Virus record (IMG/VR): IMGVR_UViG_3300008113_010014
Coordinates: 1-22,071 of that record
Reading direction: 5' to 3' (one strand)
Source of the DNA: a virus
Length of the DNA: 22,071 bases
The stretch's first letter is position 1; every line of letters starts with the position of its first letter. Below the pieces are notes generated by a model. The model ran no database searches. It had not been told where the DNA came from and saw only the letters and a list, made by a program, of their open reading frames with translations. A program made the translations under genes and the position numbers. Below are positions 2,381 through 17,403 of this stretch, in pieces.

Positions 2381-3628
2381 ATGAAAATATTTGTTCAGAT
2401 TGCGGCTTATCGTGACCCCCAACTTATCCCAACAATTAAAAATATGTTGGAGAATGCTAAAAGACCTAAAAATTTAAGATTGGCAATTGCCAGACAATTT
2501 CATCCTGACGATAAGTTTGATGATTTAACTGAATATGAAAATGATTCAAGATTCAGAATCTTGAGTATCCCTCATGAAGAATCTCAAGGAGTTTGTTGGG
2601 CAAGAAATCTTACACAACAACTCTATGATGGTGAAGAGTATACTCTTCAAATCGATTCTCACATGAGGTTTGCCCCAAATTGGGATGACGAAATGATTAA
2701 GATGATTAAACAACTTCAAAAGAAGGGACATAAGAAACCTCTTTTGACTGCCTATGTTTCATCATTTGACCCTGAAAATGACCCTGCAGGACGTATACAA
2801 GAGCCGTGGAGAATGGCGTTTGATAGATTTATCCCTGAAGGTGCGGTATTCTTTTTACCCGAAACAATACCAGGTTGGCAACAACTAAAAGAACCTGTAC
2901 CCGCAAGATTCTATTCGGCACACTATTGTTTTACTTTGGGTGCATTTTCACACGAGGTTCAACACAACCCTGAATATTATTTCCACGGTGAAGAAATTTC
3001 AATCGCCGCACGTGCATACACTTGGGGATATGATTTGTTTCACCCACATAAAGTTTTGATTTGGCACGAATACACTCGTAAAGGAAGAACGAAGCAATGG
3101 GATGACGACAAAGAGTGGGTAAGAAAAAATAATCACTCACACCTTACCAATCGTCAATTATTTGGTATGGATGGTGAAGAACAAAAGGGGCACGATGGTC
3201 CTTATGGTTTTGGTAGTGTTAGAGAGTTAAGGGATTATGAAAAATATTCTGGTCTCTTGTTTGAAAAACGAGCGGTTCAACAATACACTTTGGATAAAAA
3301 TTATCCACCAAATCCTTATAATTATGAATCTGAAGAAGAATGGAAAAAGAATTTTGCTTCTATCTATAAACATTGTATTGATGTAAATTACGCATCCGTA
3401 CCTGAAAAAGATTATGATTTTTGGGTGGTTGCATTCCACGGTCCTAATGATGAGACATTATACAGAAAAGATGCTGATAAATCCGAAATTCAACGTATAA
3501 TGAATGACTCTGATGGGTATGGTAAAGTATGGAGAGAATTCCAAACAGAAATTAAACCATCTTACTGGGTTGTTTGGCCATTCTCAATTTCAAAAGGATG
3601 GTGTGAAAGATTGACAGGAACTTTGTAA
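2381..3628 (+). CDS. GlcNAc-transferase-like glycosyltransferase (GT60/PF11397 type)
   Basis: The 415-residue protein opens with KIFVQIAAYRDPQLIPTI, the signature start of the GlcNAc-transferase family that includes the Dictyostelium Skp1 hydroxyproline GlcNAc-transferase. Further family features are QGVCWARNLTQQLYDGEEY (69-87), the DxH-type metal site D92-S-H94, and FHGEEISIAARAYTWGYDL (201-219), which holds the likely catalytic acidic pair E204/E205. The last 70 residues (about 343-415) look like an appended domain. There is no signal peptide or membrane segment, so it should act in the cytoplasm, transferring a sugar from a nucleotide donor. It is first in a five-gene operon and its TAA shares one base with the next ATG (TAATG). 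No Shine-Dalgarno is seen. The acceptor could be a protein (Thr/Pro-rich neighbours) or a surface glycan; this is inference. Confidence 0.75.
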   Translation: MKIFVQIAAYRDPQLIPTIKNMLENAKRPKNLRLAIARQFHPDDKFDDLTEYENDSRFRILSIPHEESQGVCWARNLTQQLYDGEEYTLQIDSHMRFAPNWDDEMIKMIKQLQKKGHKKPLLTAYVSSFDPENDPAGRIQEPWRMAFDRFIPEGAVFFLPETIPGWQQLKEPVPARFYSAHYCFTLGAFSHEVQHNPEYYFHGEEISIAARAYTWGYDLFHPHKVLIWHEYTRKGRTKQWDDDKEWVRKNNHSHLTNRQLFGMDGEEQKGHDGPYGFGSVRELRDYEKYSGLLFEKRAVQQYTLDKNYPPNPYNYESEEEWKKNFASIYKHCIDVNYASVPEKDYDFWVVAFHGPNDETLYRKDADKSEIQRIMNDSDGYGKVWREFQTEIKPSYWVVWPFSISKGWCERLTGTL

Positions 3629-4218
3629 TGAGGGACGTATATTTTGTAATATCTCTTCCAAGGACAGGAACTAAGTCATTATGTAAAATGGCAAATACTT
3701 GTGGGTATGAATTTAAACACGCACCAATTAATTTGTTCAAAAAAGAGTTAGATTCAGGTAAAAACTTTTTTGCTGACACACCTTGTTTTGTACCTTCATT
3801 TATTGAAAAAATTTTTAATATAGAAAACATAAATCCAAAATTTATTTATATTGAAAAAGATTATAATAATCTGTTTAGTTCATGGGAAAAAGTCAATCTT
3901 TATTTGAACTATACAAGAATGTTTAAACAATATCAAAATGAAGAGACACGACAATCAATGAATCCAAATGCAGTTACAGATTTTCTTTCTCTTCACGAAA
4001 GTTTTTCTGAAACATATTTGGATAAAATTAATTATGCTTATCTGTTTGAATTACACAAACAAAAAATTGTTTCTATAATTAATAAAAATAATAAAGAATT
4101 ATTGATGTATAAATTTGAAGATGGTTGGGAACCATTTTGTAATTTTTTGGGTTGTGAAATACCATTTACAGAACTACCTCATTTAAACATCGATACAATG
4201 TTCGAAAAAATAATTTAA
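3628..4218 (+). CDS. Sulfotransferase-like protein
   Basis: The 196-residue protein begins VYFVISLPRTGTKSLCKMA; SLPRTGTKSL (9-18) matches the 5'-phosphosulfate-binding loop of PAPS-dependent sulfotransferases. FIYIEKDYNNLFSSW (72-86) fits the second strand-helix element that contacts the 3'-phosphate of PAPS, though the usual R-D-P residues are replaced by E-K-D. The length is short for the family, with a compact C-terminal half. Predicted reaction: transfer of sulfate from PAPS to a hydroxyl, probably of a sugar. It overlaps both neighbours by one base (TAATG at each end), indicating translational coupling. The coding sequence is visibly very AT-rich, more than the polymerase gene. The overall assignment is good; the acceptor is unknown, and a non-catalytic or other P-loop role cannot be excluded. 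Confidence 0.65.
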   Translation: MRDVYFVISLPRTGTKSLCKMANTCGYEFKHAPINLFKKELDSGKNFFADTPCFVPSFIEKIFNIENINPKFIYIEKDYNNLFSSWEKVNLYLNYTRMFKQYQNEETRQSMNPNAVTDFLSLHESFSETYLDKINYAYLFELHKQKIVSIINKNNKELLMYKFEDGWEPFCNFLGCEIPFTELPHLNIDTMFEKII

Positions 4219-5792
4219 TGGCTAATATATCTTTTTATGGTTCACATAACGCTGCTGTTGTGGTAGAAGAGAATGGTAAAATTCTCTGCGTTATCGAAGT
4301 TGAACGTTTTTTAAATGTTAAAAATGCGGGTTATGCTCAATACTTGGTATCCCATACAAGACCTTTTTTGTTAAAAGAAATTTGTAATTGGATTGAAAAA
4401 AAGTTTGGTATTTCAGAATACGAAAATTGTTACTTTTTAAATACTGATACTATTGAGGGTCCTACAAAGGTACACTACGAAAGATTGATACCTGCAAAAA
4501 ATTACGAACAACTTTTACACCATGGGTCTCACGCAGCTTGTGGATTTTACCAAACCGATTATACTGAGGCTCTTATCGTGTCATTTGATGGTGGAGGTAA
4601 TGATGGATTTTTCAATGTATATCACGCACCTGATAGAAACAATATTAACGAGATTAAAAGACTTGGAATTGATATGGGATTCCCATATATGTCTTTTGGA
4701 GATTATTTAAAAGATATTAAATTAGAGCCAGCGTTGAATATTGGTAATTTGGTTTATTCAGGTAAAATCATGGGTCTATGTTCGTATGGTACGTTAAGAG
4801 AAGAATGGTTACAACCTATGAAAGAATATTATTTGGCAAAACCAGATGGTAACAATTATTTAGGATTACTAAAAATTCTTAGTGAGAAAACGGGATTAGT
4901 TTTTGACAAGTCAAACAGATTAGAAGGTCAAGAAGCTTGGGATTTGGCTAAAACATCTCAAATTGCGTTTGAAGAAATTACACTTGAATTAATTAAACCA
5001 TTTTTGGATGAATATCCAAACATACCATTAATTATGGTTGGAGGTTGTGCTTTGAACATTTTATTTAACACAAGATTAAAAGAAGAACTTGATAGGCCGG
5101 TATTTGTACCACCCAATCCAAATGATTGTGGTATTGCATCAGGACTTTTGTTATCAAAAATGAAACCTGAAAGGGCAATAGATTTGACATATGCGGGTAT
5201 ACCAATTCTTGACGAGGAAAACTTATGGTCTGTTTTGGAACATAATTGGAGAAGTGAACCACTTAATATCGACAATTTGGTTGATTTCATAATCAGTGGA
5301 AAAATTGTTGGTGTTGCTCGTGGAAACTCAGAACACGGTCCAAGAGCTCTTGGTAATCGTAGTATTATTTGTGACCCAACTAAACCTGATATGAAAGATA
5401 TCTTAAATGCAAAAGTTAAACACAGAGAATGGTATAGACCGTTTGCACCTGTTGTAAGATTAGAAGACGTTTCAAAATATTTTGAATTTGAAGGTGAAAG
5501 TAGATGGATGGGATTTTGTCCTAAAGTAAGAGAAGAATGGAGAGAAACTTTAGTATCCATAACTCACGTAGATGGTACTGCAAGAGTTCAAACAGTCACA
5601 AAAGAACAGAATCCTTGGTTATATGATTTATTAACTAAATTTGAAGAAAAAACCGGTGTCGGGGTTTTACTTAATACATCTTTCAATGTTGATGGTAAAC
5701 CAATTCTTTCTACGTTAAGAGACGCTTTAGAGGTTTATAATAAAACTGAATTGGATGCCTTGGTACTTCAAAATTATTTTATACGTAAATGA
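4218..5792 (+). CDS. Carbamoyltransferase (NodU/CmcH/TobZ family)
   Basis: At 524 residues it has both domains of the family. The N-terminal HUJ/Kae1-like half carries SHNAA (9-13), ER (29-30), HHGSHAACGF (101-110) with metal-binding histidines, and FDGGGNDG (123-130). The YrdC-like C-terminal half carries SEHGPRALGNRSI (371-383), REWYRPFAP (403-411) and LLNTSFNVDGKPI (484-496). Family members make carbamoyl-AMP from carbamoyl phosphate and ATP and pass the carbamoyl group to a hydroxyl of a sugar or antibiotic. Within this operon a sugar acceptor is likeliest. A DNA-modifying role is also possible, since phage members of this superfamily carbamoylate 5-hydroxymethylcytosine; no hydroxymethylase is visible in this window. 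It starts in TAATG with the preceding gene and its TGA overlaps the next ATG by four bases. Confidence 0.9.
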   Translation: MANISFYGSHNAAVVVEENGKILCVIEVERFLNVKNAGYAQYLVSHTRPFLLKEICNWIEKKFGISEYENCYFLNTDTIEGPTKVHYERLIPAKNYEQLLHHGSHAACGFYQTDYTEALIVSFDGGGNDGFFNVYHAPDRNNINEIKRLGIDMGFPYMSFGDYLKDIKLEPALNIGNLVYSGKIMGLCSYGTLREEWLQPMKEYYLAKPDGNNYLGLLKILSEKTGLVFDKSNRLEGQEAWDLAKTSQIAFEEITLELIKPFLDEYPNIPLIMVGGCALNILFNTRLKEELDRPVFVPPNPNDCGIASGLLLSKMKPERAIDLTYAGIPILDEENLWSVLEHNWRSEPLNIDNLVDFIISGKIVGVARGNSEHGPRALGNRSIICDPTKPDMKDILNAKVKHREWYRPFAPVVRLEDVSKYFEFEGESRWMGFCPKVREEWRETLVSITHVDGTARVQTVTKEQNPWLYDLLTKFEEKTGVGVLLNTSFNVDGKPILSTLRDALEVYNKTELDALVLQNYFIRK

Positions 5793-6676
5793 AAACAAAA
5801 TTTGTAACGGCATTTTATACAGACATTAAAGGGTTTCCTTTTTTTGGACATGAGGCGTTTGCCAGACATGAACGATATCTACATTCATTACGAACAATTG
5901 CAAACACAAAATGTGAGATTGTTTTGTATTGTAATGAAGACCAAGTTGAATTATTAAAAGAATATTGTTCTAAGTTTGAATTATCTAATGTGATAATAAA
6001 AATTTCAAATTTGAAAGATTATCCAAAGGCTGAAAGAATGAAAGAAATTAAAGCTAAAACGGATAGTTTTAAAATGTATCATGAAATTGATTGGAATAAA
6101 TTTTATCTTTTGGAAAAAGAATATGACGAGTCCTACGATTACATTTATTGGATTGATTGTGGGTTATCTCATCCAGGTCTATTTTTAGACCGATATAATC
6201 CATATGTTGATAAAGTTGATGGTTTATCTAAAACATGGGAAAACTATTCATACGTAGGATTATTTAATGAGAATTTTGTACCTAAATTGAACGAATGGGT
6301 TAATCACAAATTAATTAATTGTTCAACCACAATATTCTTTCATGACATGAGATATGCCAACACAATTTTGGAAAAGACTTATACTGGTAGGTCAATTTCT
6401 GTTGGTGGTATTTTGGGAGGTTCTGTAAAACTATTAAAATGGTACTTCAACGAATTTAATAAATTGGCGGAATTAAGTTTAAATAAGGATTCAATCCTTA
6501 ATCATGAGGCGATGGTTTCTTACATGGTTTTAGAGAATCCTAATAATTTTACGACATGGGAATTTGATACTTGGTATCACGATGACTATTGGAAAAAAAC
6601 ACCACAATTCAATGTGGATTCAATAAAAGGGGTGAGACATTTTGTTCACCTATTTGATAAAGTTCTTGGTTTATGA
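5789..6676 (+). CDS. HtrL/YibB-type putative glycosyltransferase
   Basis: A 295-residue protein starting KFVTAFYTDIKGFPFFG, followed by a CEIVLYCNED strand (42-51) and the motif YIYWIDCGLSHPG (118-130), whose D123 replaces the DxD metal site. This layout matches the HtrL_YibB family (PF09612), members of which are GT-A-fold glycosyltransferases of surface polysaccharide loci. The same WIDxGL motif appears in the middle domain of the next gene, so the two are paralogous. No signal or membrane segment is seen. Coupled by 4-base ATGA overlaps on both sides. Donor and acceptor sugars cannot be told from sequence. Confidence 0.65.
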   Translation: MKTKFVTAFYTDIKGFPFFGHEAFARHERYLHSLRTIANTKCEIVLYCNEDQVELLKEYCSKFELSNVIIKISNLKDYPKAERMKEIKAKTDSFKMYHEIDWNKFYLLEKEYDESYDYIYWIDCGLSHPGLFLDRYNPYVDKVDGLSKTWENYSYVGLFNENFVPKLNEWVNHKLINCSTTIFFHDMRYANTILEKTYTGRSISVGGILGGSVKLLKWYFNEFNKLAELSLNKDSILNHEAMVSYMVLENPNNFTTWEFDTWYHDDYWKKTPQFNVDSIKGVRHFVHLFDKVLGL

Positions 6677-9045
6677 CAGATATTTTTGATAGGGTTCTCC
6701 ACCATTATGGGAGAAAAGGTGAAAAACTTTTTAGTTTGAACATCGGTGCAATGGACGGTGTATTATTTGATGAGTTAATTGGTTATACAACATCGTATAA
6801 CTTTAAAGGTTTGTATGTTGAACCAATTCCATATTTGTTCGAAAGACTAAAAAAGAACATAGGTGAGAACGGTAATTTGTTTGAAAATGCCGCAATTTCT
6901 GATGAGAATGGTACTATTAAAATGATGACCATTGACCAAGAGGCAATTGATAATGGTGAAGTACATTCTTGTTTCTATGGAATGAGTGCGGTTTACCCAC
7001 CCAAAAATGGTTTGGGTAGTGAGGGTGATAAAGAAGTTGTTGAGAAATACGGAAAAATTGTTGAGGTACCTTGTATTACATTAGAAACATTGTTTAAAAA
7101 ACATAACATTACTTCTTTTGATGTATTAAAAATCGACGCTGAAGGACATGATTATCAGATTTTTAAACAATTAGATTTGAATACCTACAGACCTAAAGTA
7201 ATAAGATTGGAGTGGGTAAACTTAGATAAGGAACAACAAAAAAATATTTTAGATATATTCACAAATAATAATTATAGATACGAATTTTTAGAACAAGATA
7301 TTATTGCAGCCCCTATAGAAATCTATGAAGAACTTGAAGAACCTGTTCAATCTAAACCAAAACCTGATAGTAACTCGGGTATTACTTTAGTAACAGGATT
7401 ATGGAACATCAGAAGAGATTCACTCTCTGAAGGTTGGTCTCGTTCATATCAACATTATTTGGATAAATTCCAACAATTACTACAGGTGGAAAATAATATG
7501 ATTATTTTCGGGGACTCAGAATTAGAATCTTTTGTATGGGCACACAGGGATAAAAAAAATACTATTTTTATTAATAGACCCCAAGAATGGTTTAAGGGTG
7601 AATTTTATGATAAAATTCAGGAAATCAGAAGAAATCCTGATTGGTATTCTCAAGCTGGTTGGTTACAGGAATCTACACAAGCTAAGTTAGATATGTACAA
7701 CCCACTTGTAATGTCTAAAATGTTCTTACTTCATGATGCAAAAATTTTGGATTCGTTTGATTCAAAATATATGTTTTGGATTGATGCTGGATTAACAAAC
7801 ACGGTACACCCTGGTTATTTTACTCATGATAAAGTTATCGATAAACTTACCAAATACGTAAGTAAGTTTTCATTTGTTTGTTTCCCTTACGAAGCAAACA
7901 CTGAAATTCACGGATTTAGATTTGATGAAATTAATAAAATAACAGGACAAAAAGTTGAATTAGTTGGTCGTGGTGGATTTTTTGGTGGACCTAAAAACTC
8001 AATAGGTGATATTAATTCAATATACTACAATCTTTTACAATCAACACTAAACAAAGGTTTGATGGGTACTGAGGAAAGTATTTTTTCAATCATGGTCTAT
8101 AAACATGCCGATTTGGTTGATTATTTTGAGATTGAATCAAATGGATTGTTTGGTAAGTTCTTTGAAGATTTAAAGAACGATAGGTTGGTTAGAAAGAACA
8201 AACAAAATTTACTTTCACCAAGTGATGATTTAGACACTTCTAATTCGGCGTTATATGTTATTACATTCAATAGTCCAAAACAATTTGAAACACTTATTGA
8301 ATCGATGATTCAATACGACAGAAACTTTTTGGACAAACCAAAAAAATACCTTTTAGATAATTCTTCAGACTTATCAACTACCGAGAAATACTCGGAACTA
8401 TGTAACCAACATGGGTTTGAACACATCAAAAAAGATAACTTAGGTATTTGTGGGGGTAGACAATGGATTGCAGAACATGCCGAAGAAAATGATTTTGATT
8501 TTTATTTCTTTTTTGAAGATGATATGTTTTTCTATCCAAAAGAAGGAAGTGTTTGTAAAAATGGATTTAATCGATATGTAGAAGATTTTTATAATAAATC
8601 TTTGATGATTACTAAAAAATATCATTATGATTTTTTGAAATTCAATTACACCGAGTTTTATGGTGATAATGGGATTCAATGGTCTTGGTATAATGTTCCA
8701 CAATCTTTTAGAGAAAAACATTGGCCAAACAAATCACAACTTCCTGTACAAGGAACTGACCCTAATGCACCAAGAACTAAATTCAACAATATTAGAAGTT
8801 ATCAAGGAATTCCTTTTGTTGATGGAGAAATTTATTATTGCAATTGGCCTCAAGTAGTGACAAAACACGGTAATAGAAAAATGTTCTTAACAGAAAAATG
8901 GGCACATCCCTTTGAACAAACTTGGATGAGTTATATGTTCCAACAAACAATTAAGGGTGATATTAAACCCTCAATGTTGTTAATGACACCAACCGAACAC
9001 GATAGATTTGATTTCTATGATGGAAAATTGAGAAAAGAGTCCTAA
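6673..9045 (+). CDS. Three-domain fusion: FkbM methyltransferase, HtrL/YibB domain and GT-A glycosyltransferase
   Basis: A 790-residue protein with three recognisable enzymes. Residues 1-215 are an FkbM-type SAM methyltransferase: NIGAMDGVLFDE (23-34) for SAM binding, YVEPIP (48-53), and DVLKIDAEGHD (150-160). After a Pro/Glu/Lys-rich linker (about 217-235), residues 236-500 form an HtrL/YibB domain with TLVTGLWNIRRDS and YMFWIDAGLTNTVHPG (366-381). Residues about 525-790 form a GT-A-like glycosyltransferase: ALYVITFNSPKQFETLIES start, NLGICGGRQW (589-598) and the acidic metal motif FFFEDDMFF (612-620). The predicted product could both extend and O-methylate one glycan. It ends the operon; the stop is followed 18 bases later by a structural-type gene. 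The domain calls are by motif; the third is the least certain. Confidence 0.75.
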   Translation: MTDIFDRVLHHYGRKGEKLFSLNIGAMDGVLFDELIGYTTSYNFKGLYVEPIPYLFERLKKNIGENGNLFENAAISDENGTIKMMTIDQEAIDNGEVHSCFYGMSAVYPPKNGLGSEGDKEVVEKYGKIVEVPCITLETLFKKHNITSFDVLKIDAEGHDYQIFKQLDLNTYRPKVIRLEWVNLDKEQQKNILDIFTNNNYRYEFLEQDIIAAPIEIYEELEEPVQSKPKPDSNSGITLVTGLWNIRRDSLSEGWSRSYQHYLDKFQQLLQVENNMIIFGDSELESFVWAHRDKKNTIFINRPQEWFKGEFYDKIQEIRRNPDWYSQAGWLQESTQAKLDMYNPLVMSKMFLLHDAKILDSFDSKYMFWIDAGLTNTVHPGYFTHDKVIDKLTKYVSKFSFVCFPYEANTEIHGFRFDEINKITGQKVELVGRGGFFGGPKNSIGDINSIYYNLLQSTLNKGLMGTEESIFSIMVYKHADLVDYFEIESNGLFGKFFEDLKNDRLVRKNKQNLLSPSDDLDTSNSALYVITFNSPKQFETLIESMIQYDRNFLDKPKKYLLDNSSDLSTTEKYSELCNQHGFEHIKKDNLGICGGRQWIAEHAEENDFDFYFFFEDDMFFYPKEGSVCKNGFNRYVEDFYNKSLMITKKYHYDFLKFNYTEFYGDNGIQWSWYNVPQSFREKHWPNKSQLPVQGTDPNAPRTKFNNIRSYQGIPFVDGEIYYCNWPQVVTKHGNRKMFLTEKWAHPFEQTWMSYMFQQTIKGDIKPSMLLMTPTEHDRFDFYDGKLRKES

Positions 9046-12352: not shown

Positions 12353-12617
12353 TTTCTCAGTCAACAATCCTGAGGCAGACTTTTGGTTAATTCGTAAGGG
12401 TGATGAGTCTACTGTTGGTTCTCCAACTAAAACTTTTTCACCTGAACACATTGGAGTTACGGTAACTCGTAGAGACTTGGTACTTCCCGAGTATCTATTT
12501 TATGTGTTCCAATATTTGGTTATGAATGGTACAATCAAAAGTTTGTCACACGGAACTACCCGTTTGAAAAACATTAGAACAAGTGATATTGGTAATATTA
12601 CCGTTACGACTGCTTAA
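12330..12617 (+). CDS. Orphan HsdS target-recognition-domain-like protein
   Basis: The start chosen is ATG 12330, inside the end of the polymerase gene (23-base overlap), because upstream residues in this frame do not fit. The 95 residues contain WLIRKGDESTVGSPTK (19-34), FSPEHIGVTV, then LPEYLFYVFQYLVMNGTIKS (about 52-71) and LSHGTTRLKNIRTSDIGNIT. The last part follows the pattern of the closing portion of a type I restriction specificity (HsdS) target-recognition domain, where a tyrosine-rich helix is followed by a G-T/S-T turn and a short strand. There is only one half-domain and no HsdS coiled-coil helix, and no HsdR/HsdM is nearby. Similar small proteins are, from memory, found in other marine T4-like phages. 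Its role is unknown; DNA binding or an effect on host type I systems is conjecture. Confidence 0.55.
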   Translation: MKLKQLVDFSVNNPEADFWLIRKGDESTVGSPTKTFSPEHIGVTVTRRDLVLPEYLFYVFQYLVMNGTIKSLSHGTTRLKNIRTSDIGNITVTTA

Positions 12618-12939
12618 GTCCGTCTGAAGATATAATATACCAAGTACCGGCACAGAAACGGAACTCAACACAAGCTCCTTTACCGATTACTATTTCATCA
12701 TATTCTTCATCAATCCATCCTCTATCAGGAACGATTGTGACATTTGTCATTGCTTTAATTACTGTGTGGTCAGTTGTTGTGGCGTTGAGTTTTATTTTAC
12801 ATTGGTCAACACCACGGATGACAATACAGGCTTCTCCGTTTGTATCATAAGTTGGTTCTGAAACCACGGATACTTCGGAGGTTGTTATTAATTTACCATT
12901 AATTACTCTTTGAGCTGGTGTACTTTTTATAATTGACAT
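12604..12939 (-). CDS. Small beta-rich phage protein, function unknown
   Basis: The 111-residue protein is the last gene of the leftward operon, starting 3 bases after the stop of the gp13-like gene. It overlaps the convergent HsdS-like gene tail to tail by 14 bases. It has many short beta strands: an IVIRGVDQCKIKLNATTTDH segment (about 39-58), a VTIVPD turn, VIGKGACVEFRF, and a C-terminal GTWYIISSDG. The G-x-W-x-I end is common in trimeric fibre and capsid-decoration proteins. I do not recognise a named family. By context it is probably a minor virion protein. Confidence 0.6.
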   Translation of the reverse strand: MSIIKSTPAQRVINGKLITTSEVSVVSEPTYDTNGEACIVIRGVDQCKIKLNATTTDHTVIKAMTNVTIVPDRGWIDEEYDEIVIGKGACVEFRFCAGTWYIISSDGLKQS

Positions 12940-12942
12940 AAA

Positions 12943-14061
12943 TTACATTACATAGATTTGTCTTGGAGCCGCACGGAATTTCATTTGCTTATTTAGATTT
13001 TCAGCAATTTCTGCCTCTTTCTTCATTTGATTCTCGGGACGCAATCTCTCAAGTCTTAACTTAAGTTCTTCTTCTAACTTAGATTTCTCGTCTTTAGATT
13101 CGGTCAACAACGAAGTGTAATCCATTATTAACTCACTATCAGGAGTTTTTAAATTACCTGAATACTTACCCCTAACTCTTGCCAAGGTTTCTTTAGCGTA
13201 GGCGGTAAACCATCTTCTAACCCATTGTTGTGCGGGTGCGTTTAAGTCTTCCCATGTAAGGTCTTGAATAGGTACATCAGAAGGTAATTTGATAACATCA
13301 GGGTTGTCTCTTAAACAATCTGCTCTTGAGTCGGGTGTGGAGTCATAATACCAATACCACACAGCTTTACCCTCATATTCCGAATAATTATTCCAGTTAA
13401 ATCTACCACCAGGTGTGTTCTGAAGATGAACTAATTTTTTTCCATCAGGCAATGCGGTGATTCGGTAAGCCAAATAACCACCCAAGATTCTATTCAAAAT
13501 GTTTGCTTCTTGTGCTCTTAGTAGATAATCAAAACCACTCAACATAAAGTATGAACCTGCGTTACCAAACTGAGCATAACCCGCTTGGTTAGCACCCAAT
13601 CCCATACCACCAAATCCATAATCAGAAGTACCCCACAAAGCCATATTTTGAAATGGTTGGTTTGAAAACCATAATAGTTCGTTTACTTCCCTACCTGCAG
13701 GTATCTCATAGGTTTGAACATTCTTTTCAAGAATAAAGTAATCTTTCTTTAATACCCAAGGACCTTTTGTTTGTAAACCAACAATTTTTGAATATGAATA
13801 TGAGTATTGGTCCTCAAGATTCATTGTTCTTGTTATCAAAGCTTGAGCTACTGATTTTTCACTCATATTCAAATTGACCAAGTTCACCCAACTGGATTCT
13901 ATCAACCAATCCAGGGTGTACTGTTCATAATCTTGGATGGAAAGTTCCATCAAAGAATCTAGCATTTCATCCTCGAGTTCAACACTTCTTAGTGGTGCAC
14001 CAAGTTGGTGTTTAATCCTCGTATAGATTTTACTCCTTTCGGGTTCTGGTATTACTGGCAT
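12943..14061 (-). CDS. Neck (head-completion) protein, gp13-like
   Basis: The 372-residue protein starts IYTRIKHQLGAPLRSVELED (11-30), with helices following that contain EQYTLDWL. T4 gp13 has an equivalent N-terminal pattern of LGAP, then VEL, then helices with a tyrosine-rich end. Central residues (about 125-260) are rich in aromatics and Gly, and about residues 310-350 form a Lys/Glu-rich, probably coiled helix (EEELKLRLERLRPENQ). Function by family: joins the filled head to the tail. It lies third in a leftward operon, 19 bases after the SOD-nuclease gene. The TATAAATACT box (on the + strand) is 3 bases before its ATG. The gp14-like and gp15-like genes are on the opposite strand to the right. 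Confidence 0.55.
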   Translation of the reverse strand: MPVIPEPERSKIYTRIKHQLGAPLRSVELEDEMLDSLMELSIQDYEQYTLDWLIESSWVNLVNLNMSEKSVAQALITRTMNLEDQYSYSYSKIVGLQTKGPWVLKKDYFILEKNVQTYEIPAGREVNELLWFSNQPFQNMALWGTSDYGFGGMGLGANQAGYAQFGNAGSYFMLSGFDYLLRAQEANILNRILGGYLAYRITALPDGKKLVHLQNTPGGRFNWNNYSEYEGKAVWYWYYDSTPDSRADCLRDNPDVIKLPSDVPIQDLTWEDLNAPAQQWVRRWFTAYAKETLARVRGKYSGNLKTPDSELIMDYTSLLTESKDEKSKLEEELKLRLERLRPENQMKKEAEIAENLNKQMKFRAAPRQIYVM

Positions 14062-14080: not shown

Positions 14081-15607
14081 TTATTTTAAGTGGTATAACA
14101 AATCGTTCCTATCAAAAACATATTGTCCTAAAACAATTTCAGGATTGTTTTTGAAAATTAAAACTTGTCTACCTCTGATGAAAACCATCCAATTAACTTT
14201 ATAGTTGTCAATTTCTCCGGTTTTAGTAATAACTAACTTATCCTCCTCAGGAATCATTTCATCATAACCTTTAACCTGTGCGGTGATTTTTCTACCCTTA
14301 TGAAAAATTTCTAAATCAATTTTTTTGTAGGCATCTTTTTCTTTACCCGCACCCGCAATAACAATTACCTTAGTTTCGGGAATTTTGGTTTCAATTATTT
14401 TTTTGGCGGTTTGTTCTCTCTTACTTCCAATAGAATCTTTTTCTTTAAGAGTTGCCATAATGTTTTTGAATGTGTGACTTGTTTTTGAAAAAATTCTTGA
14501 TGCAAATTTTTCAATGTAATTACACATTCTTTTCATTTCTCTAATCTGTTCTGCGGGAGTTTTATCGTCAAAATTAATTGCTTCTTCGTTTAATTGACCG
14601 ACAATAACTTTGTTCAAATCATTTACCATAATACAAAAAACTGAATAGTTTGTATTCATGTAGTTAATAACAGAACGACCTGGTTTTTCTAAATTGTAGA
14701 TACCGGGTATTTCACCATCTTCAGTTTTATCGTGATACTTGTCGGCAAAAAGGTTTTTCAAAACACTATTAATTGTGTTCTTATAAATGTTTCTTGCTTG
14801 TTTGTTTACATTGAATAAAATTCTGTAGAATTCCACATCTTCTCTTGAACAACCTTCTGATTTCGCTTCGTGTAATAATTGACCCATTTCTACTGATTCT
14901 AAAAGTGACGTTTCTGTTTTCATTTTATACAAATTACCAACAAAGTCCCAATTGACTGCGGTCCAAAAGTTTTTGATATATTCATCTCTTTTGTTTTTGT
15001 ATTTGAGGTAATATGCATGTTCCCACAAATCTAAGCCTAAAAGTGGATATCCGCCGCCTTCTATAACATTCATTAATGGATTATCTTGGTTTGGAGTTGA
15101 CATAATTTTTAATGTCCCTTTGTTTGTTAGAACTAACCAAACCCATCCCGAACCAAATCTTTCTTTGGCAATTTTTTCAAACTCTTGTTTGAATTTTATA
15201 AACGTTCCAAATTCCTTGATAATTTTTTCTTCAATCTCTTTGGTAACTCTCATTGGTTTTGGAGATAACATGTTCCAAAAAAGAGCGTGATTGAATGCCC
15301 CACCAGCGTTGTCTCTTACACCTTTTGGATAACGTGAAATGTTTCTAATAATTTTCTCAAGGTCCTCATCTTTTTTTCTTTTTTTGAGAAGACCATTAAG
15401 TTTATCAACGTATCCTTTGTAGTGTTTATTGTAGTGAACGTTCATTGTCTCAGGGTCAATAAAACGTTGCAGGGCTGAATAGGCGTAAGGGAGTTTTTCT
15501 ATCCCTATTTTTTTCATTTCTTGAATTAGAACCTTTACCTCTTCTTTTTTCTCTTCTTGTAGAATTTTCTTTTCCAAAATTTCTACCGATTCTTGTAGTT
15601 GTTGCAT
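14081..15607 (-). CDS. Mn-superoxide dismutase fused to a PD-(D/E)XK-like nuclease domain
   Basis: The 508 residues carry a full Fe/Mn superoxide dismutase at about 38-228: LPYAYSAL, then HYNKHYKGYV with ligand H58 and gateway Y66, AGGAFNHALFW with ligand H107, RFGSGWVWLVL, and GLDLWEHAYYL with ligands D193 and H197. G103 and Q174 (STPNQDNPLM) occupy the positions typical of Mn rather than Fe enzymes. A helical middle region (230-390) is unassigned. The C-terminus (about 395-508) has KKIDLEIFHKGRKITAQVKG (428-447): D431, E433 and Q444-V-K446, an acidic residue plus QxK core as in Mrr-type and related nucleases. All SOD ligands are kept, so dismutation of superoxide is plausible. It lies between the SNF2 helicase (38 bases upstream) and the gp13-like gene. 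The nuclease call is less sure than the SOD call. Confidence 0.8.
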   Translation of the reverse strand: MQQLQESVEILEKKILQEEKKEEVKVLIQEMKKIGIEKLPYAYSALQRFIDPETMNVHYNKHYKGYVDKLNGLLKKRKKDEDLEKIIRNISRYPKGVRDNAGGAFNHALFWNMLSPKPMRVTKEIEEKIIKEFGTFIKFKQEFEKIAKERFGSGWVWLVLTNKGTLKIMSTPNQDNPLMNVIEGGGYPLLGLDLWEHAYYLKYKNKRDEYIKNFWTAVNWDFVGNLYKMKTETSLLESVEMGQLLHEAKSEGCSREDVEFYRILFNVNKQARNIYKNTINSVLKNLFADKYHDKTEDGEIPGIYNLEKPGRSVINYMNTNYSVFCIMVNDLNKVIVGQLNEEAINFDDKTPAEQIREMKRMCNYIEKFASRIFSKTSHTFKNIMATLKEKDSIGSKREQTAKKIIETKIPETKVIVIAGAGKEKDAYKKIDLEIFHKGRKITAQVKGYDEMIPEEDKLVITKTGEIDNYKVNWMVFIRGRQVLIFKNNPEIVLGQYVFDRNDLLYHLK

Positions 15608-15620
15608 TGTAAGGTTTTAT

Positions 15621-15630
15621 CTATAAATAA
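15621..15630. promoter_or_regulatory. TATAAATAAT box upstream of the SOD-nuclease start
   Basis: The + strand contains an exact TATAAATA (15621-15628), again opposite to the leftward gene it precedes. The coding strand reads ATTATTTATA, close to the AGTATTTAT motif of other starts. It lies in the 38-base gap after the helicase stop. Confidence 0.25.
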
Positions 15631-15645
15631 TAGAAAGATGTGCTT

Positions 15646-17403
15646 TTACCTCCTTTGACTGATACTCTTTAGGATTTCTTCAACAATATTTGTATCATCT
15701 TGTTGGATATCACCCATAACAGTCCCAATAATACGTTTTTTCATATTAAGGATATCATAAATAATTCCTTCAATTGTGTTTTCAAAAATTGGATAATATA
15801 CGAGTACGTTATTTTTTTGTCCGTATCGATAAGCTCGGTCTTCGGCTTGTGAGTGGTCAGATGGAAGGAATGATAAGTCATTCATAATCACCGCTTCAGC
15901 GGCAGTTAATGTAATACCAACACCAGCAGCTTTGATGTTTCCGACAAATACTTTTACCTTTTCATCCTCTTGGAATCTATCTACAGCATCTTGTCTTTGA
16001 ATTTTTGACATTTGTCCATCAAGACGAACCGCAACCTTTCCAAAGTGTTCAACAATGGTTTCTAAAGATTTTGTAAAATTACAAAAAATAATAACTTTTT
16101 TGTCTTGTTCGATGAAGTTTTCTGCCAATTCAATTGTGTGTTGAGTTTTTTCCTCGGCAATTACTTGTCTCACTTCTGTTAGTTTAGTAAACTGAATTGA
16201 AAGGTTTTTACTTTCCTCAGGGTTTCGTTCGTACCAATTATAGTAATCACCCATAACCTCCTCGTATTTTTTTGAACGAAGTCTTAGATATACAGGGGTG
16301 ATGATTTTTTCAGGTAAATCCAAAACATCTTCTTTTAATCTTCTCAAAACAGTTGGAGATGTTCTGTCTCTCAACTCTTCCAAGTTTGATGCCCCCATGA
16401 CATTCCAAACCTTCCTTTGTCCAACTTTAAATTGATAACCCGAACAATAACGGATAACATACGCCATCCAATTTTTGGCAACGGGTGAATCAACTAACGA
16501 TAACAAATTGAAATAGTTAATTGGTCGTGATGTCATTGGTGTACCTGTCAACAACCAAAGTCTTTCAATATTCTTAACCAAGTCATTAATTAGTTTGGTT
16601 CTTTGAGCTTGAACATTTTGAATGTAGTGAGCTTCATCAATGATAACCAAATCAAATCCTGAGTTTAAAATTTGAGATTCATTTGGTTTTTTTGAATCAT
16701 GAAAGTTTTTAATAATATCATAGTTCATGATTACAAAATCGGCATCACCTGTAAAGTTTTTTCCTTCACAAATGTATGTGGTCTTTTTTGAATAAAGTTG
16801 TATTTCTCTTTCCCAGTTAATCTTCAAAGTTGCTGGACAAATAATTAAAACTTTTTTTGACCCCGTTTCCAAAGCGGCAATGATTGTGGATGTGGTTTTA
16901 CCCAAACCCATATCATCAGCCAAAATATATTTTTTATTTTTTAACAGAGATTCAATAGCAATTTTCTGATGTTCCAAAGGTGGACGGTGTCCATACTTAG
17001 AATAATCAATTTCTTTAATCTCAACTTTATTGTCTTTAATAATTGAAACTTTGGGAACCCAAAAATCTGTTAGTTGGTCCGTCTCAAAAAATCTCCCCCA
17101 AACATGATATGCTTTATCTTTCTCGGCTAAAAGTTTTTCAATCCACAATCTCTCAGGAACTTCCATCAAAAATTTATCGTTAGCCAACTTGTTTGCAAAA
17201 TAAGAATCTAACACAACCCACTTTTTAGCAACCTTGGGGGTTTTATCTTTATTTGTCAGAATATATTCTGCTTGTGACCTTGTAGGGTAAAACTTAGAAT
17301 TAACTGAAAGTTTCTGTTTTAAGTTTAGGATATAGTTATTTGCACCCTCGTATTGTTCAAGTGCGGAAATAGCTTTGGATTCTATTGTTAAGTCTATACC
17401 CAT
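15646..17403 (-). CDS. SNF2-family DNA translocase/helicase
   Basis: The 585-residue protein has the standard two RecA-like lobes of the Snf2 superfamily. Motif I is LADDMGLGKTTS (161-172), Ia ICPATLKINWERE (188-200), motif II DEAH (256-259), motif III LLTGTP (284-289). In the second lobe: VIIFCNFTKS (437-446), GVGITLTAAEAVI (494-506) and motif VI QAEDRAYRYGQ (519-529). About 145 N-terminal residues form an extra domain. The SNF2 core differs from T4 UvsW, though a similar role in fork remodelling, recombination or repair is possible; gene-neighbour context also allows it to work with the nuclease domain in the next gene. It leads the leftward operon; its ATG is followed 92 bases to the right by the divergent gp14-like gene. 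Confidence 0.9.
   Translation of the reverse strand: MGIDLTIESKAISALEQYEGANNYILNLKQKLSVNSKFYPTRSQAEYILTNKDKTPKVAKKWVVLDSYFANKLANDKFLMEVPERLWIEKLLAEKDKAYHVWGRFFETDQLTDFWVPKVSIIKDNKVEIKEIDYSKYGHRPPLEHQKIAIESLLKNKKYILADDMGLGKTTSTIIAALETGSKKVLIICPATLKINWEREIQLYSKKTTYICEGKNFTGDADFVIMNYDIIKNFHDSKKPNESQILNSGFDLVIIDEAHYIQNVQAQRTKLINDLVKNIERLWLLTGTPMTSRPINYFNLLSLVDSPVAKNWMAYVIRYCSGYQFKVGQRKVWNVMGASNLEELRDRTSPTVLRRLKEDVLDLPEKIITPVYLRLRSKKYEEVMGDYYNWYERNPEESKNLSIQFTKLTEVRQVIAEEKTQHTIELAENFIEQDKKVIIFCNFTKSLETIVEHFGKVAVRLDGQMSKIQRQDAVDRFQEDEKVKVFVGNIKAAGVGITLTAAEAVIMNDLSFLPSDHSQAEDRAYRYGQKNNVLVYYPIFENTIEGIIYDILNMKKRIIGTVMGDIQQDDTNIVEEILKSISQRR

Follow-up and report, generated by a model that had tools for sequence, protein, structure and literature searches.

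Superoxide dismutases (SODs) of freshwater phages have been read as host-protecting genes (PMC6802176), and SOD is packaged in the virions of giant viruses of eukaryotes (PMC9405923). Stand-alone SODs are also found in the jumbo phages PA5oct and Vibrio phage 2.275.O, and the record of the PA5oct SOD-like protein bears the note 'ESI-MS/MS', which hints at a virion location. In phage T4, the prohead protease gp21 cleaves after L/I-X-E (PMC9026906). Fusion of a phage SOD to a nuclease, swappable partners of such a SOD and protease sites at its joints were not found in the open-access literature searched.

The window analysed here is a stretch of 22,071 nucleotides from the virus record IMGVR_UViG_3300008113_010014. 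An earlier note, made from the sequence of the window alone, had described a Mn-SOD fused to a nuclease-like domain at 14081..15607. This fusion is real. The gene lies on the minus strand and encodes 508 amino acids from an ATG start; the open reading frame supports this, and hundreds of viral contigs encode homologues of full length. One scan of IMG/VR gave 348 encoding relatives, and the best 80 of these 348 are mostly full length. The presence of the same architecture in hundreds of contigs excludes chance or an assembly artefact. The note's authors knew of no SOD-nuclease fusion, which was not quite right: UniProt A0A6J5L953 (uncultured Caudovirales phage, 501 amino acids) has the same full-length architecture and 46% identity over its length, but it was deposited as a plain 'superoxide dismutase' with the nuclease part absent from the name. 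No SOD-nuclease fusion was seen among 45 bacterial SOD loci from a genome scan, and the nuclease module was absent from 297 Bacteroidota genomes in a search run without a positive control.

The gene belongs to a run of four on the minus strand. Upstream is a SNF2-type helicase gene (15646..17403), a constant neighbour recognised by family matches and locus comparison. Downstream are a neck or head-tail connector gene (12943..14061; PHROG 211), which is also constant, and a 111-amino-acid gene of unknown function (12604..12939), the last in the run, placed by the ORF list and locus comparison. The order helicase, SOD-nuclease, neck and small gene is conserved among relatives. Elsewhere in the window, a gene run at 2381-9045 resembles, by reading, glycosyltransferases, a carbamoyltransferase and an FkbM-type methyltransferase, and two ORFs with Thr/Pro-rich repeats at 409-2280 look tail-fibre-like. 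Long relatives reach 171 kb in this set and 322 kb in a wider set. Where checked, they encode gp23, the S77 protease, a T4-type terminase, sheath, gp19 and baseplate, so that in these relatives the claimed T4-type identity of the virus is confirmed. Shine-Dalgarno motifs are almost missing (10/147 ORFs) and the neck gene has a weak match to the 'head completion protein' of Flavobacterium phage immuto, which together suggest that the hosts are Bacteroidota.

The octamer TATTTATA is present on the minus strand at 15622..15629, 15-22 bases 5' of the ATG, and nearly all of the loci shown have it directly 5' of their SOD gene. It is about 11-fold enriched just 5' of ORFs, many of which are structural, including those for portal, core, tail-tube and neck proteins, and it is the reverse complement of the T4 late octamer TATAAATA. 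The T4 late promoter TATAAATA itself, tried as the promoter motif, showed slight enrichment only. The enrichment and conservation of TATTTATA make it late-promoter-like, and it may act as a late promoter. In G002 and G001 the same octamer is strongly concentrated just before the start codons of many ORFs.

The SOD domain comprises residues 36-228 (14924..15502, minus strand), as delimited by Pfam, PDB matches and alignments. Sod_Fe_N (PF00081) matches residues 36-115 (7e-21) and Sod_Fe_C (PF02777) matches residues 123-224 (1.5e-38), both well over the Pfam cut-offs. The best PDB matches are bacterial Mn-SODs (E 3e-59), with those of the Bacillus group and Clostridioides the nearest solved structures. 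The phage protein has the same two Pfam domains as the bacterial Fe/Mn-SODs (PF00081/PF02777), the four ligands, the Mn-type Gly/Gln pair and the gateway His/Tyr, but unlike them the phage SODs are fused and are flanked by [LI]xE motifs. The four metal ligands H58, H107, D193 and H197 and the Mn-type pair G103/Q174 are as the earlier note stated. They are invariant in 35 full-length homologues and again in 101 nonredundant proteins, with no ligand-less homologue in the nonredundant set. Judged by these residues, the SOD part looks competent as a Mn/Fe-SOD, and activity is predicted. The stand-alone SODs of PA5oct and Vibrio phage 2.275.O also keep the four ligands, but they have no partner domain, their Mn-type Gln and gateway His are replaced and their identity is about 24-26%.

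A tree groups the phage fusion SODs in a single clade (100/100) with a long stem and puts the sampled bacterial Mn-SODs outside it. The simplest reading is one old capture. Contamination by a host SOD is ruled out at the studied locus by the flanking phage genes and by the single clade of fusion SODs. Several named phage records, most of them unannotated (OR850395, OR846594, OR846937, OR845917 and others), contain SODs 45-53% identical to the query, and these look like host DNA contamination.

The C-terminal part of the protein (residues 229-508) gave no clear family match in Pfam, NCBIfam or PHROG, and at the sequence level no solved structure was significantly similar to it. MC4, tried as its family, reached E 2e-4 in one member only, below the MC4 cut-off. 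An AlphaFold model of residues 229-508 had a pLDDT of 86 and a pTM of 0.77. The leading PDB neighbours of this model are all PD-(D/E)XK proteins (I-Ssp6803I, Hjc and RecU), with E values of 0.008-0.4 and none below 0.001. In a viral library, the nearest neighbours of the model were two long relatives; next came small proteins from phages, and several of these carry the name PD-(D/E)XK endonuclease or Holliday resolvase. The structural matches are singly weak yet consistent in kind, and the model suggests a PD-(D/E)XK-like fold.

Three segments can be distinguished in this part. A linker of low model confidence (residues 229-250; 14858..14923, minus strand) leads into the added helical middle mentioned in the earlier note, which predicted structures place at residues 251-390 (14438..14857, minus strand). 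This is followed by the PD-(D/E)XK-like domain (residues 391-508; 14084..14437, minus strand). The D/E...QxK signature of a nuclease-like domain, described in the earlier note, is borne out by alignment and model: an alpha-beta core is predicted, with an acidic residue and a (D/E/Q)xK pair in register. None of the putative active-site residues E398, D431, Q444 and K446 varies among the 35 full-length homologues. I-Ssp6803I, Hjc and RecU share the fold and the E...D...QxK arrangement, but the helical middle domain is the phage protein's own. A SOD-less relative of 290 amino acids in a 735-kb megaphage keeps both the helical middle and the E...D...QxK set, and a search started from it gave no further relatives. 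By reading, SET-domain-like genes adjoin the nuclease module in the megaphage (L085:4275-4712) and the helicase and SOD-nuclease genes in G002 (G002:53414-53809).

To examine the constancy of the SOD, loci were sampled through the neck gene, a choice that is blind to the presence of SOD; this gave 226 loci, with some contigs sampled twice. SOD was present in 204 of the 222 testable loci and absent from 18, most of which still hold a nuclease in the slot; the remaining 4 had too little sequence. On the 308-kb contig of L359, SOD was found nowhere. The partners of the SOD, by contrast, change. The 193 distinct complete SOD proteins include five C-terminal clusters of 130 (the window type), 14, 5, 3 and 2 members and 39 proteins without a partner, though these counts reflect the choice of sampled neighbours and should not be read as frequencies. 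Similarity between the five clusters is undetectable. Partner families B to E are represented by the C-terminal parts of L295, L331, L279 and L337. Family B has PyDv...SCK and family C has GQD...QVKP, and from these motifs both look like PD-(D/E)XK variants. At the other end of the chain, 34 SOD proteins carry an N-terminal domain of 160 amino acids in which HExxH is invariant and an EDEANA motif is conserved. It stands before the SOD in L279, L287, L292, L331, L337, L416 and others, with conserved IGG.nEDEANa.AG. This domain has no clear Pfam match and is probably a minimal zinc metallopeptidase. The SOD-nuclease fusion of the earlier note exists, but as one case in a modular series: the SOD core is constant, and the nuclease is just one of several alternatives that can be joined to it.

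This variation bears on two other explanations of the gene. The SOD-nuclease gene adjoins the neck gene, as would suit a portal or neck nuclease for head completion or DNA-end trimming, a stand-in for T4 gp4 with the SOD as its oligomerising or Mn-holding base. Also in favour of this, no match to phrog_218, the gp4 family, was found anywhere in eight long relative contigs with the SOD-nuclease gene, and T4 gp4 itself does match. A diverged gp4 could, however, escape the phrog_218 search. Since the slot holds SOD alone or SOD with another partner in many of these phages, the nuclease is not essential there, and we regard this explanation as improbable. Alternatively, the SOD could have a purely structural role, as a scaffold through which variable cargo is packaged or dimerised, and its catalysis would be irrelevant. 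Fe/Mn-SODs are dimers or tetramers, and this oligomeric nature, like the constancy of the SOD while its cargo varies, would suit such a role. A scaffold would not need the catalytic residues, however, and all checked ligands and second-sphere residues are kept in 101/101 nonredundant proteins. A purely structural SOD therefore seems very improbable.

The joints between the modules share a short motif. The N-terminal arm (residues 1-30; 15518..15607, minus strand) ends at a conserved [LI]xE30 and, from the motif counts, is a putative head-targeting propeptide. Two motifs in the linker, LLE237|S and LHE247|A, are of the prohead-protease type. Across 52 nonredundant homologues, 90% or more of the rows have [LI]xE in four columns only: E30 (51/52 rows), E237, E247 and LWE196H, which lies within the SOD itself. 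Apart from C253 just behind the linker, E237 and E247 show the strongest conservation there, in surroundings that are otherwise variable, predicted to be disordered and of low model confidence. In a wider set, [LI]xE precedes the SOD in 96/97 proteins against 9.1 in shuffles, and in 28/28 where the extra 160-amino-acid domain stands in front. It follows the SOD in 77/79 over six partner classes with a linker, namely 51/52 for partner A (11.0 shuffled), 11/12 for B (2.2 shuffled), 5/5 for C, 2/2 each for D and E, and 6/6 for short tails. The counts against shuffles overstate significance because the test takes related sequences as independent. In several SOD-less nuclease proteins the arm joins LSE|S directly.

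As controls, [LI]xE followed by a small residue is well kept at 1 place in the helicase and at 2 in PolB, but at none in the neck protein, so a single motif means little. The weight comes from the position of the motif at every joint, with changing partners. The S77 protease gene was found in 7/8 and 9/10 long contigs of two sets. The gp23 protein has a conserved LINE|A at residue 60, near T4's 65, and two putative core genes adjoining the protease rank high for the [LI]xE motif. Unrelated ORFs (G002 ORFs 84, 107 and 109; L339 1493-3984) open with similar peptides, e.g. MKKIVKLTESDLTRIIERVISEQ and MGKFIITESEKTRILSL; these contain LTE|S or ITE|S and are possibly head-targeting propeptides of further internal proteins.

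The joint motifs must also be set against an uncut, bifunctional enzyme acting inside the cell, whose SOD shields the infected cell and replicating DNA against superoxide while the tethered nuclease processes DNA, the Glu residues being features of the linker. Retention of the uncut fusion across wide divergence, the adjoining helicase gene and the host-protecting role read for freshwater phage SODs (PMC6802176) would all fit. Such an enzyme does not, however, account well for [LI]xE motifs which flank the SOD regardless of partner and stand out from a variable, predictedly disordered linker, and partners that are swapped or missing do not suggest a coupled two-step activity. We consider it rather unlikely.

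Given the domain identities, the intact active-site residues, the joint motifs, the protease in the same genomes and the constancy of the SOD, all computed here, we lean slightly towards a late gene for a head-internal modular precursor, with its joints cut by the prohead protease and its SOD and nuclease ejected with the DNA. The N-terminal arm would direct the precursor into the prohead core, by analogy with the short propeptides of T4 internal proteins. The S77 protease would cut after E30, E237 and E247 during head maturation and so free an active Mn/Fe-SOD (about 31-237) and a PD-(D/E)XK nuclease (about 248-508), both of which would stay in the head and leave with the DNA. The SOD could then remove superoxide early in infection and the nuclease could act on host or competitor DNA. 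With sites of the prohead-protease type at its joints, the fusion may not be a working bifunctional enzyme but a precursor from which separate enzymes are cut. The earlier note had suggested injection with the genome; the circumstantial evidence points to a head-internal, possibly injected protein, and the injection itself we infer.

T4 Alt and IPI-III are the precedent for such a protein. These share with the phage SOD protein a putative short N-terminal propeptide ending in L/I-x-E and the setting of an S77 protease and gp23 in the genome and a late-promoter-like octamer. Unlike them, the SOD protein is a multi-enzyme chain that cleavage at its several sites would divide, and its packaging is a proposal. 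No sequence kinship to T4 Alt or the IPs was seen. The two marks of a T4-type internal head protein, L/I-x-E after an N-terminal propeptide and an S77 protease, are both found, though the motif is short. Indeed, [LI]xE is three residues only and is also conserved in neighbours not expected to be cut, and one would not expect the product of the adjoining helicase gene in the virion. The residue after E30 is mostly Met, E30 could be conserved for the SOD fold and the tails of some SOD-only forms are too short to hold the second site. If the nuclease shares the head with phage DNA, it would also have to be kept inactive.

More broadly, and tentatively, the heads of a lineage of T4-type and jumbo phages may contain a modular 'enzyme package', in which a constant, active SOD is linked through prohead-protease sites to interchangeable nucleases, other domains and sometimes a metallopeptidase, and all are cut apart in the head and co-delivered with the genome. 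If this is true, phages pre-load an antioxidant enzyme together with DNA-acting enzymes in the virion, which implies that superoxide is of consequence within minutes of the start of infection. The T4 internal-protein principle would then extend to multi-enzyme precursors, with one core protein bringing changing cargo, and the SOD/neck locus would be a place to look for more virion-delivered enzymes.
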